Origin: Bacteriovoracaceae bacterium
GTDB taxonomy: Bacteria > Bdellovibrionota > Bacteriovoracia > Bacteriovoracales > Bacteriovoracaceae
DNA length: 64,000 nt
Assembly: GCA_021737405.1 (NCBI GenBank)
Contig: JAIPEG010000008.1
Coordinates: 38,936 to 102,935 of the forward strand
Direction: 5' to 3'
The notes below the pieces were generated by a model that saw only the letters and a list, made by a program, of their open reading frames with translations, had not been told where the DNA came from and did no database searches. This document shows, piece by piece, positions 3,665 through 19,574 of this stretch; the stretch's first letter is position 1; the number at the start of each line of letters is the position of its first letter. The position numbers and the translations under genes are program-made.

Positions 3665-6600
3665 TTACTGTTGCTGCTGAGTGCCCTGCCAAAAATCATT
3701 CAGTCGTAAGGTATAAAGATCTTCCTTATTCATCGTTGATTCAAAAAGCTCTTTAATGCTCTCGCCAAAACCCAAAGATGAGAAATTCCTATAACTTATG
3801 TCACTAAAGACAATCTCAAATAGGCTTCTCTCTTTGAGATAACTAAGCTTTTGGTGGGCCTCTAGATCCTCACCTTGAGAGTTTTTCAAGGCCCGCTCTA
3901 ACCTTAGAATCATTTGATCTCTTTCATAGCGAGCCGTTTCAATGATTTTCGTGGCCTCATCTCTGAGTAACGGAGTAACCTCACCACCACTTTCAATGAG
4001 TTGCTTCTTCAAAGACTCTACTTTCGGATAAAGAACCCTATGGATAAAGCGTATACTATTTTTGGACTGGGCAAACTCTCCTCTCACTCGATTAAAAGGT
4101 GAGACCACGTTTTCCTCTGAGAATAATTCGGCCTCTACTGCGCGCGCCTCACTATTTTCAACGTTTGTAAGGTCCATCACCTTTTCTCTGGCCAGCTTTC
4201 TAGACTGCGCCTTGGATTTTCCTTCCTTTCTAAAGAGAAGATAAGCTTCTCTCCAATCTTTGAAATGCTGAAACTCATGGGCCAAAGAAGAAAGAGCACT
4301 AGGAGATCTCATATTGACCCCGAGAACTGGACGATTTAGACCATCAAACCGAAAATAGTTTTGACCGAGAAGGGACTCTACAAGACTTCCCTTTGAATCA
4401 GATACTCCAATATGTCGCAACTCTCCTTCAAACTCACCTAATTCCTTTATCATTTCAAAAACATATTCATCTGAACTCTCTGTGACTTTAAAGAGCTCTT
4501 TTTGAGTGGCTCCTTCAAAGACGTAATCCATTTTGATTTTATGAATTTTTCCTTTTATTTCACTGGTCCCGACAAGGGCGCTTAGCTCACTGAGCTCCAT
4601 AACTTTACTATTTGTAAGACCTATATCTCTTGATTTTCGAAGTGAGAGAGAAAGTATTTCTTTAACCTCTAAAGAGAGTTCACCTCTTGCCTCCAAAGCT
4701 CTTCTTAAATCTAATAAAATGTCATGAAATTCAATCGTAGAAATTTTCTTATCTAGAAACGCTCGATATTTTTGAATGAAAGGAGAAAAATTAAGTCCCA
4801 ATAAATCTAAAATGTCCCTGTGAAGAGCAACCAGTGATTCAACACCAAATTTTTGAACCAATTCACCTTGCCCCTCTGAAGTTACATTGATGAGGTAATT
4901 AATTTGTCTTCCAAAGTTTTCTAATTGTACTTGGCGAGAAATACCAATATTTTTAATTTCAGGACTTATTGGTAGAACCTCTTCCCCTTTGGCGAATGTT
5001 TTCAATGCGCCAGTATCATCAACAATGAATAAAAGACCGTAGCCAGCTCCTTTAGAAGTATTAGTTGATCCACTCAAGGGCGAAGCAACCCTTACTAAAA
5101 AAGCATCTGGATCAATGACTAATTTGTCTTCTCCATCGAGCATTGCATAATACCTAGCATCCATTGCGGTCGTTTCAAAACCAACTTGTCCAGAGTCTCC
5201 TCGATTGGTTGTCACAACTAAACTTTGATCCGCAAATTCTTGAATTGTGTAATACGTTGGGTTCTTACGTACCTTTGCAACCACTTCCCTTCTTACGCTA
5301 TCAGGCTCATTTGCTAAGATATAGACGCCCTTTCCCCCACTACCATCTGGTTCTTTGATGACAAACTTCCCAAGTTTATCGATAGGAGTCTCAAATAATT
5401 CGTTAAGATTATCCAGCCCAAGAGTTCTTGTAGGACCCACACCCCTTAATCCTTCTGGTAAATAACGACTCGAGAGATAATCGGCGATGAGCTGAAAGAT
5501 TCTCTTATCATCTAAAGTGCGCCCACCAATATTACTGATGTAAATTTTTCTGTTTAAAAGAGCATCAACGAGTTCTTCTCCTTGCTCGCTTTCGGCGCGC
5601 GTGGGATCGACTCCAAGTTTATAAGAAGACTCCATAAGTAAGGGTTTTCCATCATCTCCAAACTCAATTCCATTGATAAGACCAGTCTTTGAGTAAGTGT
5701 ATTTGTAACCCACATGAGGCTCAAGCGTTACACCATACTTTCTTGCTAATTTCTTATTTGTCTCTTCATAAAAGGCAGGGTCACGAATAGGTATATCTTT
5801 TTTACTAGACTGCAAAAGAAATGATTCATCGGCCCTACTATAAACTCCTGTGACCACAGGGTTTTTAGACCCTTTCCCAGTATTAAGTCTTACAAATCCT
5901 GAAGCATCAATATATAAGTCTTTTGGTTCAACTAATGGCATTCCAGAAAATTCTGCAATAGAAGCGACATCTGGGTGAGCAGCATTTCCAGATCCCGGAC
6001 CAATAATGACAGAAATCCCCTCTTCTTTATTTGTCCACTTCAAAGCGTTATCTTCAATTGTCTTTTTTAGTGATTTAAATGGATTCCCTTGCACCATTCT
6101 TTCCGAGATTTTATCGAAAAGCTCCTTATCTCCTAACTGTAGAGCATGCTTTAAAAGGAGATTATTACTTAAGCCACTAGGTGTTGATCCGTTGGCCTCA
6201 TAAGAAATTGGTTTAGGATTTAAAATATTATCAATTGCAAAATCAAAGCCCACAACGGCAGAGAAAGGATAGTCCTTCATCACTTTTTTATTAAGCTTTG
6301 GTTCATAATAAATATTTGTCCGAAGCACATCAAGAAAGACATTTTGAAGACCCTTGGGCAAGGAATCGATCGTTAAATACTTTGCCGTATGCTCTCCTGA
6401 GTAAACCCTTTGCAAAACTTCTCTAAAAGTTCTCATGAAAGCTTCAGTTGACCCTGTTAATTTCTCATAAGTACTATGAGGCATTGGAACAAAACCTCTA
6501 AAAGGAACCTTTGACACTTTTGTGTATTGACCCGTCTTTGCATCTTTTGTCATAAAGGTCATTTCATTATCCGCATGAATCAAAGTCATGCGATTATTGA

Positions 6601-6934
6601 GTTCTTCAATTCCTTCTGCTCCCCTAGAGAAATATTCATCAACGAAGCCCGAGGCATATGAGTGAGGCCGTCCGGCAGAACTCAAAAGGAAATTATTTGC
6701 TTCTTGCTCGATAATTTCACTACCGTCCTCTGATTTTAGCCTTAACTTAAAAGCACCTAAAATCTCCCTATCGTATCTTGGGTTTACGATTGGGGCTCGT
6801 CTAAACAGTTCATAGCAGGACAATTGGTCTGCTAGTGAGGCAATTTCTCTTGTTCTTTCCTGTTGAGAGGTCGAACACGCACTAATGAAAAGACAAAGGA
6901 CTAAAATTGCTGAAAGATAATTCTTAGTTTTCAT
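3665..6934 (-). CDS. Large lipoprotein with circularly permuted ATP-grasp-like domain and C-terminal HExxH motif
   Basis: Lipobox LFISAC. YEANGSTPSGLSNN, IGPGSGNAAHPDVASIAEFSGMPLVEPKDLYID and KFVIKEPDGSGGKGVYIL resemble CP-ATP-grasp signatures. SSLAHEFQHFKDW near the C-terminal region. Confidence 0.75.
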   Translation of the reverse strand: MKTKNYLSAILVLCLFISACSTSQQERTREIASLADQLSCYELFRRAPIVNPRYDREILGAFKLRLKSEDGSEIIEQEANNFLLSSAGRPHSYASGFVDEYFSRGAEGIEELNNRMTLIHADNEMTFMTKDAKTGQYTKVSKVPFRGFVPMPHSTYEKLTGSTEAFMRTFREVLQRVYSGEHTAKYLTIDSLPKGLQNVFLDVLRTNIYYEPKLNKKVMKDYPFSAVVGFDFAIDNILNPKPISYEANGSTPSGLSNNLLLKHALQLGDKELFDKISERMVQGNPFKSLKKTIEDNALKWTNKEEGISVIIGPGSGNAAHPDVASIAEFSGMPLVEPKDLYIDASGFVRLNTGKGSKNPVVTGVYSRADESFLLQSSKKDIPIRDPAFYEETNKKLARKYGVTLEPHVGYKYTYSKTGLINGIEFGDDGKPLLMESSYKLGVDPTRAESEQGEELVDALLNRKIYISNIGGRTLDDKRIFQLIADYLSSRYLPEGLRGVGPTRTLGLDNLNELFETPIDKLGKFVIKEPDGSGGKGVYILANEPDSVRREVVAKVRKNPTYYTIQEFADQSLVVTTNRGDSGQVGFETTAMDARYYAMLDGEDKLVIDPDAFLVRVASPLSGSTNTSKGAGYGLLFIVDDTGALKTFAKGEEVLPISPEIKNIGISRQVQLENFGRQINYLINVTSEGQGELVQKFGVESLVALHRDILDLLGLNFSPFIQKYRAFLDKKISTIEFHDILLDLRRALEARGELSLEVKEILSLSLRKSRDIGLTNSKVMELSELSALVGTSEIKGKIHKIKMDYVFEGATQKELFKVTESSDEYVFEMIKELGEFEGELRHIGVSDSKGSLVESLLGQNYFRFDGLNRPVLGVNMRSPSALSSLAHEFQHFKDWREAYLLFRKEGKSKAQSRKLAREKVMDLTNVENSEARAVEAELFSEENVVSPFNRVRGEFAQSKNSIRFIHRVLYPKVESLKKQLIESGGEVTPLLRDEATKIIETARYERDQMILRLERALKNSQGEDLEAHQKLSYLKERSLFEIVFSDISYRNFSSLGFGESIKELFESTMNKEDLYTLRLNDFWQGTQQQQ

Positions 6935-10739: not shown

Positions 10740-11447
10740 TTACTTGGGTAAATAATCTTCTATTTGTTTAAAGAACGCTGTTGCCCCAGTAGAGCTTAAG
10801 TGAATTAAATCATTGAGATAATTTTCTCTATTCTTTGAAAAGATTTTATAATTATCGTCACTCATTCCTCTGATGACTTTACAACGATCTTTTATGGCCT
10901 CGAGAAAGTAACTTTCAGTTTCCTTTCGTAATGCATTCTTATCTTTAAGTGTGTAATAGTAAGGAGGCGATGTGATAAAGAGACAATCCTGATTACCAAG
11001 ATCATTTAATAATCTAGTTATCTTCTCTGATATATAGGCTCCATTAAAACCCATTGAATTACCTAAAAATTGAAAGATTACAAATTCAGATTTTTCTCGA
11101 TTAAGGTGTGAGAAGATCATGCTTTGATCTTCTCCCGCGCAAACTTTCTTACCCAGCGGGATATTGGTTGTTCCGTTAAAACGCCCCTTACGAGAACATA
11201 GCCACTCACCATTCTTGTCATTCTTAGTGGCGCTCCAGTGCCTAGGAGAACTAGAACCTATTCCATAAATAAAGATCTCTTTTTCATTAAATGACTTTAA
11301 GAGATGCTGATGAATAATTCCCCCTAATGCCCCTGCCGTTTGGGAGTCTCCTATATACAAAACGGAAGGCTTTGATGCGGGAGTTCTAATTACAGAACTA
11401 CAAGAGCCAATAAAAAGAATGAGAAAAACAGTTAGTAACTTATTCAT
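10740..11447 (-). CDS. SGNH/GDSL hydrolase-like lipoprotein
   Basis: Lipobox LFIGSC; VLYIGDSQTAGALG block I, late DLIHLSSTGA block V-like. Confidence 0.75.
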   Translation of the reverse strand: MNKLLTVFLILFIGSCSSVIRTPASKPSVLYIGDSQTAGALGGIIHQHLLKSFNEKEIFIYGIGSSSPRHWSATKNDKNGEWLCSRKGRFNGTTNIPLGKKVCAGEDQSMIFSHLNREKSEFVIFQFLGNSMGFNGAYISEKITRLLNDLGNQDCLFITSPPYYYTLKDKNALRKETESYFLEAIKDRCKVIRGMSDDNYKIFSKNRENYLNDLIHLSSTGATAFFKQIEDYLPK

Positions 11448-11563
11448 TTTTCAATTACCTAGAATAACAATTAAATTTTATCCGCCTTCTAAGAGTTTAG
11501 ACTAAATCTCCTATTCAAAGTAATATTATACAATATAAGGGATTCATTTAAAGGGAATAGGCA

Positions 11564-12610
11564 ATGGCGTACTCTGATAAAAGTTATAAGTTATATGACA
11601 CTTTAAATCCTGAGGCACTTGAGGGAAAACTTGATCGCTACAAACACCTATTGCCTATATTCTCAAACCAAACAAAGGACATACTGACATTACCGGCTCT
11701 TAAAGATACCGAGCTAGTCGATCGCGCACAAGGCTGCTTCCTTGGTCTGGCCATTGGTGAGGCAATCGGCTCTACAGCAGAACTTCTCCCTAGAGATAGT
11801 TTTGAAGAAATTAGAGATATGACAGGTGGTGGCCCCTTAAACTTAGAATTAGGGGAATGGACAGATGGCACGGCCATGTCGATTTGTCTGGCAAAAAACT
11901 TGCTAGCATCAGAGACTGTAGAACAATATGACTTCATGGAACGGCTACAGGCTTGGCTCAAAAATGGTGAAAACTCTGCACGGGGATCTGCCAAGGCAGT
12001 CGGTAGTACCACTCTTGCTGCAATAGAGAGTTTTATAAAAGACGAAAACCCCTCTGCTGGCTCCCAAGATCAAGATAGTGCCGGAAATGGCTCACTCATT
12101 CGCCTAGCACCTCTGGCCATTTTTTCAAGAGAGCATCGCAGTGATGCCCATCACTTATCGAGCAAGCAGTCTCGCGCCACTCATGCTAGCTACGAGTGCC
12201 TAGATGCTTGCCAATTATTTATTGACCAATTGATTGATGCACTCAATGGTGCCGACAAAAGCACTACTCTTCGCCCCAGAATCATGCACTTGGCCCCAAA
12301 CACGTTAGCTATCAATGGAGGGGACTGGAGAGAGAAATCCCGTGATGATATTCGTTCTAGTGCTTATGTGATCGACACCTTAGATGCTGCTCTTTGGTCT
12401 GTATGGCAAACTGATAACTTCCGTGATGCCATTCTTTTGGCCGTAAACCTTGGAGGTGATGCGGCTTCAGTGGCAGCTGTCACTGGTCAATTAGCTGGAG
12501 CCCTTTATGGATTAAAATCCATCCCTTATAAGTGGCAAACTTCTATCGCAAAGGCCGATGAGATTAAAACGCTAGCAAATAAACTACTTAGATTTAGAAA
12601 AGATATATAA
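11564..12610 (+). CDS. ADP-ribosylglycohydrolase family protein with divergent metal motifs
   Basis: GCFLGLAIGEAIGSTAELL, GEWTDGTAMSICLAKNLL, GNGSLIRLAPLAIF, NLGGDAASVAAVTGQLAGALYG align with ARH/DraG motifs. Confidence 0.85.
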   Translation: MAYSDKSYKLYDTLNPEALEGKLDRYKHLLPIFSNQTKDILTLPALKDTELVDRAQGCFLGLAIGEAIGSTAELLPRDSFEEIRDMTGGGPLNLELGEWTDGTAMSICLAKNLLASETVEQYDFMERLQAWLKNGENSARGSAKAVGSTTLAAIESFIKDENPSAGSQDQDSAGNGSLIRLAPLAIFSREHRSDAHHLSSKQSRATHASYECLDACQLFIDQLIDALNGADKSTTLRPRIMHLAPNTLAINGGDWREKSRDDIRSSAYVIDTLDAALWSVWQTDNFRDAILLAVNLGGDAASVAAVTGQLAGALYGLKSIPYKWQTSIAKADEIKTLANKLLRFRKDI

Positions 12611-12663
12611 ATACGGTTACTTACCCTTTTAAGTTTCAACCAGTTTAGTCCGTAAAGTTGGTT

Positions 12664-13665
12664 ATGAAATATAAAATTTTAAGGTTTTTTCGACCCATAT
12701 CAAAAGAGCAATTCAAAAAGGACCTATGGCCGCTTATCGTGGTCTTACTTCTTATCAATGGTATTGCGATTAGTCTTTTTAACCCACTTGATATGGCAAT
12801 TCACTGGAATATTGCTTTGTTCTTACTAAACTTCCCTATTGGAATCTATATAGGCACTCGTATCATAAAGAGAGTCCTCTATTTTATCGATGGTAAGAAT
12901 CGCTTATCCAAAGCGGTGGCCATTTTACTTGTAGGCCAAATGCTTCCTTTGTATCAGATATATCTGCTTGTAAAATGTATGCAATCAATTCCCAAAAAGT
13001 CCTCTCACTTAAAAACTCTTATGCTTAAACCAGTTTCTTATTGCCTCACTATGCTCGTGATAACCTTGGCCATAAGCTTTCCCCATGTTCCCCGTCACAT
13101 CTCTCTTCAGCTAGGCCCTGAGGCCAGCTATATTACCTATATCACCATGGATGCTTATAGATCATTCAAAGCTAAAGGTGAGTTTTCAGAGGAATGTATA
13201 AAATCAGCGAGCCCCGACTGCTTTAGAGAAAAAATAAAGAGTGAGGTGTTACCTGGAACCAGTACTAGCATTATTTTGAGCGTATCTATTGATATGCTGA
13301 TTCTCTTCAAAAGAAAGTCAGCATTAATTAGTCAGAATGAAACTCAGAAAAAAGAACAAACCTTCAAAATTGCCAAAGAAATGCTAGAATCAAATGCTTT
13401 TTATCTCAAAGAAAATGCCTGCAACAGAATCACCCCTCTTCAATTAGCGGGTCCAGTAAATCTTTCCCTTGGAATGGGATCGGCTTATGTCCTACAGGCT
13501 ATCGATTCCCATATAAGCACTCGCTTCTATAAAATGGCAAGCCTAAGGATGAGGTCTATTTTGAAGAAATTAAAAAAATATAATAAGTCAAAAGAGCAAG
13601 CACGGAATATCGCAAGTCTTGATGAGTTTTTTGAGAAAGATCTGGGGAAAATTTGTCTTCAATAG
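12664..13665 (+). CDS. Integral membrane protein of unknown function
   Basis: Several hydrophobic segments in the N-terminal half; ATG at 12664 preferred over TTG at 12658. Confidence 0.6.
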   Translation: MKYKILRFFRPISKEQFKKDLWPLIVVLLLINGIAISLFNPLDMAIHWNIALFLLNFPIGIYIGTRIIKRVLYFIDGKNRLSKAVAILLVGQMLPLYQIYLLVKCMQSIPKKSSHLKTLMLKPVSYCLTMLVITLAISFPHVPRHISLQLGPEASYITYITMDAYRSFKAKGEFSEECIKSASPDCFREKIKSEVLPGTSTSIILSVSIDMLILFKRKSALISQNETQKKEQTFKIAKEMLESNAFYLKENACNRITPLQLAGPVNLSLGMGSAYVLQAIDSHISTRFYKMASLRMRSILKKLKKYNKSKEQARNIASLDEFFEKDLGKICLQ

Positions 13666-13763
13666 CCAATCATTTTCATCAACTAAAGCACTGAAGTCAT
13701 AAGAGAGACCTTTTTCCTCTATATTTTGCTAATAATGAGACCTTATCTTACCGAAAAGGCAAC

Positions 13764-15614
13764 ATGTGGATAAAGCCCCTCATTTTTGTAATCATATTCA
13801 GCTTAAATTTGACCAGCCACGCCTTTGAAATTCCGGGTTTTAGGCGAGTCCTTGGATTTTTTGGATCACAGGAATCAGAAGAGACCCTAGTAGGGCCCTT
13901 AACTTGTTACAGAGAAGAGCTTGCCCCAAATCTAGAAAGTCATGCTCAATGCTCTGAGTCCCTTTGCGCAGAAAGTAAAACAAATAGCCTCTACCTAACT
14001 AACGAGACGATTGAGAAAAATCTAACTCCTGAATTGCTAAGACCCTTTCAAAATATTAAAGAAAACCTCAAAAGCAATCTCGAAGGACTTATCGTTAATA
14101 GAAGAGCCCTTCTTAATCTTGCAAGAGAAAGAAGAGCTAATATTCTTTCTGAATTTGATAAAATGGAGGAAGGAAACTTCCAGCGCTCAGCACGTCGCTT
14201 GCTAGATGATTATGTAGGGAATTTCAGATGGAGTACCAATCAAAGTAATGAAAATCTTTTTTTTGCGCCACCAACCTTTTCAAATACCCAAATCAGAGGT
14301 GTCGAAAGCTACGCCAATGCAGCCTTTGCCAAACGAAATCTCTTCCCCACTGTTGTAAGACCAGAGCAAAGTCTTGAACAGCAAAGAACATTAGTGAGCT
14401 CTCAAATTAGAGATTTAATTTCGAGAATCCAAAATCCAGAACAAAGGATGACAGATATAACTCGTAGGAATACTCTAGAATATCTTCAACTGCAGCTTAC
14501 ACATGTTAACCAATTCGAAAACCAAGGTCTGGAACACTTTGTCATATCCATCGATAATGAATTGAGAGATTTTCTTCAAATAGGATTTAACCCAGAACTT
14601 ATTAATGAAGAAGCTTTAGAATTTTGTAGTGAGCGAGTCTGTAAAGACACTGTTAAAGATTTAGCTTCTCAAAGGCTTGACACTATTTTTGAGGATGAAT
14701 TAGACAAGGGTCAAAGTAGATTCCTACAGGAAAAACTATCCTACTGTCGATCCCTTTATGCCTCAGCAGTATTAGCGAAAAGAGAAAGGCAAGCTCATAA
14801 TCAATTACTCACATCAACTCTTAATGATTTCATTAATTCTGGCTTGAGTTCTTATAGTGAGAATACTAAGCAACAGTTTCGAACCTTTGCTCTAGAATCT
14901 TTACAAGAGGAACAATTAATGGAGGAAGAATCGCCAGAGGAATTAATTAGACGTTTTGCTAGTCAAACCCGGCCACCTGAATTTAAGCCAGATCGTTTCT
15001 TTGATGATTTAGGGCTTCTAAACGAATCACTTGGATTTACGAGAACATCCTTCAGTGGACGATTTAACCCTCATTACTTATGTCCAAGTGATTTCATTGC
15101 AGGCGTTCAAGCACCACTAACTAGTGAAGGAACCCTAAACAGGTATAATTGTCATCACTTTCTTATGGATAGAAATATCGCTGCCCATGAATTAGGTCAT
15201 CTTTTATCAAAATCATATAACACCATCAATTGGAGTTTTGAAAGCAGAGAAATATTTGATGTTACCAGAGCTTGTGCTCAAAATCATTATCTTGAAGGTA
15301 ACCAAAACTTTGCCTATGATGCTCCATTTGACGGTGACTTGATAACCACTGAAGAAGACTTTGCTGACTTGATAGCCTTTAAAACTTATGAAGGCCCTAA
15401 TGATCTGCTTTCATGTCGTTTTTTTAAAAATGTATCAAATAACCCAACTCCGGATGATTACAGGTTAATTTCTCAAGAGAGCATAAGTAAACATTCCACA
15501 CCATTTTTCAGACTTATTCAAGAGGCCCTTCATAAACAACTTGAACTTCCTAGCAGCTGCCAAGGTATTTTGAATTCTGCGAAGAAAAAGATTCGGACAG
15601 AACCATGCTTCTAA
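13764..15614 (+). CDS. Exported protein with HELGH metalloprotease motif
   Basis: Signal peptide MWIKPLIFVIIFSLNLTSHA; NIAAHELGHLL followed by TEEDFADLIAF. Confidence 0.65.
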   Translation: MWIKPLIFVIIFSLNLTSHAFEIPGFRRVLGFFGSQESEETLVGPLTCYREELAPNLESHAQCSESLCAESKTNSLYLTNETIEKNLTPELLRPFQNIKENLKSNLEGLIVNRRALLNLARERRANILSEFDKMEEGNFQRSARRLLDDYVGNFRWSTNQSNENLFFAPPTFSNTQIRGVESYANAAFAKRNLFPTVVRPEQSLEQQRTLVSSQIRDLISRIQNPEQRMTDITRRNTLEYLQLQLTHVNQFENQGLEHFVISIDNELRDFLQIGFNPELINEEALEFCSERVCKDTVKDLASQRLDTIFEDELDKGQSRFLQEKLSYCRSLYASAVLAKRERQAHNQLLTSTLNDFINSGLSSYSENTKQQFRTFALESLQEEQLMEEESPEELIRRFASQTRPPEFKPDRFFDDLGLLNESLGFTRTSFSGRFNPHYLCPSDFIAGVQAPLTSEGTLNRYNCHHFLMDRNIAAHELGHLLSKSYNTINWSFESREIFDVTRACAQNHYLEGNQNFAYDAPFDGDLITTEEDFADLIAFKTYEGPNDLLSCRFFKNVSNNPTPDDYRLISQESISKHSTPFFRLIQEALHKQLELPSSCQGILNSAKKKIRTEPCF

Positions 15615-18866: not shown

Positions 18867-19574
18867 TTACATGGTATTCTGAAACTCTCTCATTTTAAAA
18901 TTAACGAGGGAATCAAGTGAGCTGGTTGAGGTCACTTTAAAGTGATCAATCCAAATGGCCTTTAAATATTGAATGGAGTGATTTGGGTGGGTATTCATAT
19001 CACTTAGTAAATAATCAAGGCGCTCTTTTAGTTCAGGTGAGCGAATATCAGCGAAATGACCTTCATCATAGAGAGAGAGCAATTTACGGTTTAAGTCTAC
19101 TTGCTCGTCATGAAAGTAATCAAAAAACTGAACAGCATGCTCGAGATCATGAACAAGAAAATGAAGTGCATTTTCCTTATTTAACTTTGGCCCATTCCAC
19201 CGATCTGGATCGCAATATAGGGTCACGCATCTACGAGAACTCGCCTGCAGACTAAGAACCTCATATACACTAGGGACATGTTGAAGGAGTTCAAGTTGCC
19301 ACTCACCCAGAGTCCACTTTGCAAGAGCGCGAGAAACCTTAGACTTAATGCGCTTAAAGCGAGTAAATTCTAAATAATTAGCGAGCTCAAGAGAACTTAG
19401 CCTCGTAATTTCATCTAAACCCAATCTTGCCTTTTTTGATTGTACGAAGCCCTTTCCATGAAAATACTCTCCAAGGCATAAGAATGCGACAACTCCCATT
19501 CGTGCAGGAGCTAATTTATTTTGATTGTAGCAACGCAGGGCCTCATCAAATGTCGCCAAAATTTCCATGGTCAT
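18867..19574 (-). CDS. Hypothetical protein with HDLEH motif
   Basis: 235 aa ORF; LHFLVHDLEHAVQFFDYFHDEQ. Confidence 0.5.
   Translation of the reverse strand: MTMEILATFDEALRCYNQNKLAPARMGVVAFLCLGEYFHGKGFVQSKKARLGLDEITRLSSLELANYLEFTRFKRIKSKVSRALAKWTLGEWQLELLQHVPSVYEVLSLQASSRRCVTLYCDPDRWNGPKLNKENALHFLVHDLEHAVQFFDYFHDEQVDLNRKLLSLYDEGHFADIRSPELKERLDYLLSDMNTHPNHSIQYLKAIWIDHFKVTSTSSLDSLVNFKMREFQNTM

Follow-up and report, generated by a model that had tools for sequence, protein, structure and literature searches.

The gene and its product

An open reading frame encoding 1089 amino acids, with an ATG start, occupies 3665–6934 on the reverse strand of the window (the whole 64,000-nucleotide stretch of Bacteriovoracaceae DNA analysed here), in exact agreement with the initial annotation. 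The features of the gene are as follows, where CP denotes circularly permuted.

3665..6934 (-): coding sequence of a lipoprotein with CP-ATP-grasp domain, HExxH domain and Gln tail (open reading frame; PF14403, E = 3.7e-19; AlphaFold2 model, pLDDT 84)
6875..6934 (-): lipoprotein signal MKTKNYLSAILVLCLFISAC, residues 1–20, with Cys20 as the predicted lipidation site and Ser at +2 (sequence, hydrophobicity)
5015..6748 (-): circularly permuted ATP-grasp domain, residues ~63–640 (Pfam; match to 3n6x, glutathione synthetase fold)
6191..6244 (-): predicted Mg-binding motifs D231 and E246-A-N248, then STPSG (invariant in exported members; aligned with GVD and LEDN-PSG of 3n6x)
5504..5506 (-): K477, an invariant Lys in LDDKRI (family alignment)
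5327..5356 (-): K527-E-P-D-G-S-G-G-K-G536, ATP lysine and glycine-rich loop (K and GG invariant; aligned with VVKEVQGSGGYG of 3n6x)
5039..5161 (-): D592-x-R594, L613-V-R615-x-A and N625-T-S-K-G-A-G-Y632, the remaining conserved ATP-grasp motifs (alignments)
3710..4501 (-): HExxH domain, residues ~812–1075, without a Pfam or PDB family (homologue alignment; Pfam and PDB searches)
4265..4279 (-): H886-E-F-Q-H890, predicted zinc site (invariant in 9 of 9 homologous domains)
4127..4150 (-): E929 and E936 in SEARAVEAE, candidates for the third zinc ligand on the same predicted helix, 922–942 (invariance; AlphaFold2 model)
3668..3679 (-): C-terminal tail Q1086–Q1089, encoded by CAG CAG CAA CAG, disordered in the model (sequence; AlphaFold2 model)

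That a fused protein of this composition is real can be taken as practically certain. The gene is flanked by PhyH, radical SAM, TolC and RND genes; comparison with relatives revealed no conserved neighbours, and no alpha-E, transglutaminase-like or Anbu gene is adjacent. An operon with the RND/TolC or PhyH genes was considered, as these lie on the same strand with gaps of about 90–105 bases; however, the arrangement is not kept in relatives and is therefore given no weight. Promoter and terminator scans gave results at chance level. None of six genomes of the same genus contains an orthologue.

Two clades of the family and the export signal

When relatives and named genomes were searched, nearly the whole family proved to lie within Bdellovibrionota; one exception (L067) is classed as Myxococcota. 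A few contigs with titles naming other bacteria, among them Nonlabens (L106) and Nitrosovibrio (L075), carry Bdellovibrionota-type copies that branch inside Bdellovibrionota, and they are probably mislabelled metagenome-assembled genomes. We found no description of this family. In the tree of the ATP-grasp domain, a branch with 100/100 support cleanly separates an exported clade, to which the window protein belongs, from a larger sister clade of ~1250-aa proteins, which lack the signal, have a different HExxH region and are apparently cytoplasmic as judged from their sequences. In the nearest exported relative (43% identity; L056:7848-11350), the gene is split into two open reading frames of 879 and 208 aa, which reflects a real break, a frameshift or an assembly error.

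The N-terminus of the window protein carries the basic and hydrophobic signal and the lipobox Cys of a bacterial lipoprotein, lipidation being predicted. The lipobox occupies residues 13–23 (LCLFISAC-STS), the hydrophobicity of the signal reaches 2.93 over 12 residues, and the LFISAC noted initially is part of a textbook-type signal within the first 20 residues. The export predicted from it is also supported by the clade: a hydrophobic N-terminal signal was found in 9 of 9 exported-clade members tested and in 1 of 52 sister-clade members, the latter probably owing to a miscalled start. Most exported relatives carry ordinary, SPase-I-type signal peptides; thus, export rather than lipidation is common to the clade, and the lipobox seems to be particular to the window copy.

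With these signals, the window protein is very likely extracytoplasmic. If the N-terminus instead anchored the protein in the membrane and the enzyme faced the cytoplasm, or if it acted in the cytoplasm before export, the ATP chemistry would be ordinary and would accord with the larger, signal-less sister clade, which seems cytoplasmic. Such an arrangement is improbable, however: a short basic, hydrophobic and lipobox-bearing signal predicts that the body lies outside, the only TM-like stretch in the window protein is within the N-terminal signal with no second TM segment, signals of the SPase-I type are found in other exported members, and the HExxH domain also occurs downstream of signals in combination with different partners, as described below.

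The CP-ATP-grasp domain

Pfam models PF14403 (CP_ATPgrasp_2; E = 3.7e-19, 69.4 bits against a curated cut-off of 32) and PF04174 (E = 1.3e-12, 48 bits against 23) both matched the window protein, and all the CP-ATP-grasp-like segments quoted in the initial annotation are present; an NCBIfam search of the protein gave no match. An AlphaFold2 model built from 42 family sequences (mean pLDDT 84, pTM 0.73) had as its top Foldseek match the CP-ATP-grasp structure 3n6x (E = 1.6e-14, probability 1.00, TM 0.79 by target length); next came eukaryotic glutathione synthetases, also with probability 1.00, and then the secreted effectors of a plant-parasitic nematode that resemble glutathione synthetase. 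The model of a non-exported sister-clade member was better (pTM 0.87) and gave the same matches. Because the model matches a solved structure, the strong profile match is not a chance one, and the domain assignment is upheld by profile and fold alike.

Several features bear on the activity of this domain. One is that the profile alignment gives the permuted motif order of 3n6x: D231, ExN246–248, PSG, K527-GSGG, DxR, RVA and NTSxGxG. We take the D, E and N residues to be Mg ligands by analogy with glutathionylspermidine synthetase. Another is that the ATP-, Mg- and substrate-site residues, as well as K477, are retained throughout the sister clade and in 8 of the 9 exported relatives that were compared, so that the ligand conservation raised as a question in the initial annotation holds with one clear exception (L071). 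The last is that D231, E246, N248, K477, K527, GG, D592, R594, R615 and N625 are retained in exported members at only ~30% overall identity, which indicates selection for catalysis. L071, in which three G-loop or C-terminal positions are changed, is the only clear departure; L057, L059 and L060 have single substitutions at less critical sites. The domain therefore looks active, and from its sequence we consider it probable that it is.

These data also weigh on the suggestion of a repurposed domain, in which the ATP-grasp would be dead and its fold retained after export in a binding or structural role that serves the protease. The exported clade does evolve fast, with end branches of about 1–6 changes per site in the ATP-grasp tree, L071 has lost some G-loop and C-terminal motif positions, and ATP is usually in short supply beyond the cytoplasm. 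Nevertheless, nearly all of the 25 active-site positions inspected are unchanged in most exported members, which would be unexpected for a dead site, and the retention of the Mg, ATP and substrate-site residues in 8 of 9 relatives makes this suggestion an unlikely one.

The HExxH domain

The HExxH motif reported initially was confirmed within SSLAHEFQHFKDW at residues 882–894. Across nine homologous C-terminal domains with about 25% identity to one another, H886, E887, H890, E929, E936 and a YP..E motif do not vary; since HExxH and two downstream Glu residues are thus invariant, the motif is not a chance match. The combination of HExxH with a downstream Glu as the putative ligand is that of the gluzincin type. 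No peptidase match was obtained for the domain, whether as a Pfam family over cut-off, a PDB profile or a Foldseek peptidase fold, and the sister-clade model likewise gave no significant peptidase-fold match. A weak DUF6782 match was confined to the sister clade. Homology between the clades in their C-terminal halves was considered and is not claimed, because the HExxH motifs do not align in register (hhalign probability, 34%).

The domain is present in only 7 of 291 Bdellovibrionota genomes and is mobile, occurring in several partner architectures. In one genome (G120; L133:2670-5441), a signal peptide is followed by the HExxH domain and then by a MutS-like ATPase whose Walker A motif is intact; in another (G025), the domain stands behind a signal without an ATP-grasp. 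Given this mobility and its occurrence behind signals with varied partners, the region seems to represent a putative metallopeptidase domain that is mostly exported and has not been described before. We hold it to be rather likely that the peptidase is active.

Two other proteins were noticed elsewhere in the window: a 616-aa exported protein with a HELGH motif, which scores over the cut-off of no Pfam family and is another putative metallopeptidase (13764-15614), and a 235-aa protein with HDLEH and without a Pfam family (18867-19574).

The C-terminal glutamine tail

The window protein ends in QQQQ, a feature absent from the initial annotation. Endings in QQ (2–8 Q) occur in 54 of 63 distinct family open reading frames with a real stop, as compared with 7 of 1715 other open reading frames in the same neighbourhoods, one of the seven being a fragment of a family member itself. 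Sister-clade proteins almost always end in YNQTQQ followed by 0–6 additional Q. Another complete member of the exported clade (G263; L203:9973-13437) has the ending SQQ, and the tail is missing in two exported members, L057 and L060. Repeat slippage was considered as the origin and ruled out, because the codons are mixed (CAA 133, CAG 132) and only two open reading frames of at least 60 aa in the whole 3.36-Mb genome end in QQQ. The other of these (L164:1501-3012) encodes an outer-membrane-like protein that resembles LptD.

It is highly probable that the tail is functional. In the model, the last 14 residues, including the tail, are disordered, and the tail is docked in neither active site. 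It is conceivable, though doubtful, that the tail is a chemical substrate. A comparably tentative view is that it serves solely in sorting, stability or protection from proteolysis, to which its variable length (2–8 Q) and its disorder in the window model would be suited. However, the tail is common to the exported and non-exported clades, and a single sorting route is thus unlikely; a stability role may exist. This view is compatible with an active extracytoplasmic ligase/peptidase.

Gene neighbourhoods of the relatives

Flanking sequences were fetched for 57 sister-clade loci. A neighbour of 600–800 aa was found in 52 of them (e.g., L078:4774-6921, L072:11702-13924 and about 50 others), and the remaining five reach a contig edge. 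This protein (cluster 1) has 48 invariant columns in 20 sequences and no relative in Pfam, NCBIfam or PDB; a role as membrane anchor was rejected, its hydrophobicity being at most 1.05. The flanks also contain a barrel-like exported protein (42 loci), TGase_elicitor (24 loci) and Gln_deamidase_2 (14 loci), and the exported member L063 has a transglutaminase lipoprotein directly downstream. Among 115 genomes of the bacterial family, TGase_elicitor occurs in 33 of 33 with the long form versus 46 of 82 without it (p about 3e-7, uncorrected for kinship). It is strongly expanded there (79 of 115 genomes, up to 18 copies per genome), and the window genome has a single copy (L130:6104-7714), on a different contig beside a clostripain-like gene. 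As TGase_elicitor is so common and is not near the gene here, the functional link is weak for the window copy.

Supply of ATP outside the cytoplasm

ATP should be scarce at the predicted location, and an intact ATP-dependent domain on an exported lipoprotein is therefore surprising. The literature search found no exported ATP-grasp in bacteria. The window genome encodes a second, distinct CP-ATP-grasp lipoprotein (589 aa; L131:7270-9039, contig C22:31269-33038; PF14403, 1.9e-37), with the lipobox FTGC, the EDN and K-GRGGD motifs retained and no Gln tail; signal-bearing relatives of it occur in G001, G002 and G043. The gene of the exported member L060 is flanked by those of two AAA and peptidase M41 (FtsH-like) proteins with Walker A motifs (L060:3678-7652 and 10994-14821). 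A clear signal peptide is present in the protein at 10994-14821, and no other TM-like stretch occurs in either, so that the pair are possible exported ATP-dependent proteases. Together with the signal-bearing fusion of the HExxH domain to a MutS-like ATPase, these proteins suggest that the lineage exports several enzymes that use ATP.

An intact ATP site implies that the protein encounters a nucleotide. ATP uptake has been reported for Bdellovibrio 109J (Ruby and McCabe 1986, cited in PMC4834554), and cultured relatives are typically intraperiplasmic predators (PMC11656739). By analogy with these, ATP from prey would be the likeliest supply, an assignment that we make tentatively for a source organism that belongs to a predatory lineage and may itself be a predator. 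The window genome has a weak, partial TLC match as its sole candidate for an ATP/ADP translocase, which might have been a sign of nucleotide exchange.

The initial annotation also allowed for periplasmic use of another donor. With polyphosphate, another NTP or an acyl phosphate in that role, the exported enzyme would be active with no connection to predation. Although this would remove the problem of ATP supply, the ATP-contact residues match those of 3n6x, and nothing in the neighbourhood suggests an alternative donor; we know of no ATP-grasp of this fold that uses one. We regard such a donor as very unlikely.

Proposed mode of action

From the computational observations on both domains, their conserved active-site residues, the clade-wide export signal and the conserved tail, we infer the catalysis, substrate, tail role and ATP source as follows. 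The reading that best explains the whole, with a probability of about 0.5, is that the protein is an active amide ligase/peptidase acting outside the cytoplasm, with a functional Gln tail and possibly with prey ATP. Secreted to the cell envelope, it would be an enzyme with two domains: the CP-ATP-grasp half would activate a carboxylate as an acyl phosphate and then join it to an amine, and the HExxH half would cleave a peptide or isopeptide bond in what is plausibly the same target. The flexible tail would be a functional element under protein-level selection and would most plausibly serve as a handle or substrate for Gln amide chemistry, performed either by the ligase of the protein itself or by transglutaminase/glutaminase-type enzymes such as those that adjoin its relatives. 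The nucleotide would be met outside the cytoplasm, most likely as ATP released from attacked prey cells. Of the "unusual peptide or peptidoglycan ligase/hydrolase" proposed initially, the peptide ligase/hydrolase thus remains the best reading, and nothing points specifically to peptidoglycan.

A more speculative extension, with little likelihood at present, is a self-contained extracytoplasmic protein-conjugation module: the ligase would use prey ATP to build or elongate amide bonds at its own Gln tail or to join the tail to proteins, and the fused metallopeptidase and the transglutaminase/glutaminase-type enzymes would edit or release the products.

If active at its predicted site, the protein would be an ATP-dependent ligase outside the bacterial cytoplasm and would provide a testable case for predators that use prey energy to power ATP-driven protein chemistry outside their own cells. 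The Gln tail and the adjoining Gln-acting enzymes in the sister clade point to an undescribed protein-modification system, for which the 600–800-aa partner without a known family (52 of 57 sister-clade loci) is a ready target.

Comparison with known systems

To our knowledge, the known CP-ATP-grasps of the glutathionylspermidine-synthetase type (PF14403/PF04174; 3n6x; Anbu operon) are cytoplasmic single-domain proteins. The window protein shares with them the permuted domain, the Mg/ATP motifs and their order, and the fold; it differs in having an export signal, a fused HExxH domain and a Gln tail, and in lacking an Anbu or alpha-E neighbour. In Anbu operons, the ATP-grasp is also accompanied by a transglutaminase-like gene, and the Y. 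bercovieri ATP-grasp enzyme releases phosphate from ATP (PMC6376114).

An amide ligase is likewise paired with a peptidase in RimK/RimB and in the Pseudomonas rlo operon, the latter also containing a transglutaminase-like membrane protein. RimK and RimB both act on a C-terminal tail (PMC12239564). Their peptidase is, however, retropepsin-like and unrelated, the two are separate proteins with a cytosolic RimK-type ATP-grasp, and poly-Glu is added onto another protein, whereas the Gln tail of the window protein is encoded.

Pup-PafA-Dop combines an amide ligase, an opposing peptidase/deamidase and a chemically used C-terminal Gln. The Pup ligases have the glutamine-synthetase fold (PafA/Dop), the modifier is a separate small protein and there is no sequence relation, whereas the ligase half of the window protein is a CP-ATP-grasp of the glutathione-synthetase fold.

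Finally, the secreted glutathione-synthetase-like effectors of Globodera (PDB 5oeu, 5oev, 5oet) are related at the level of the fold only, being eukaryotic and without a metallopeptidase or a Gln tail. Nevertheless, they too are secreted ATP-grasp proteins of the glutathione-synthetase fold, and they act where ATP comes from the cell of another organism (PMC5919673).
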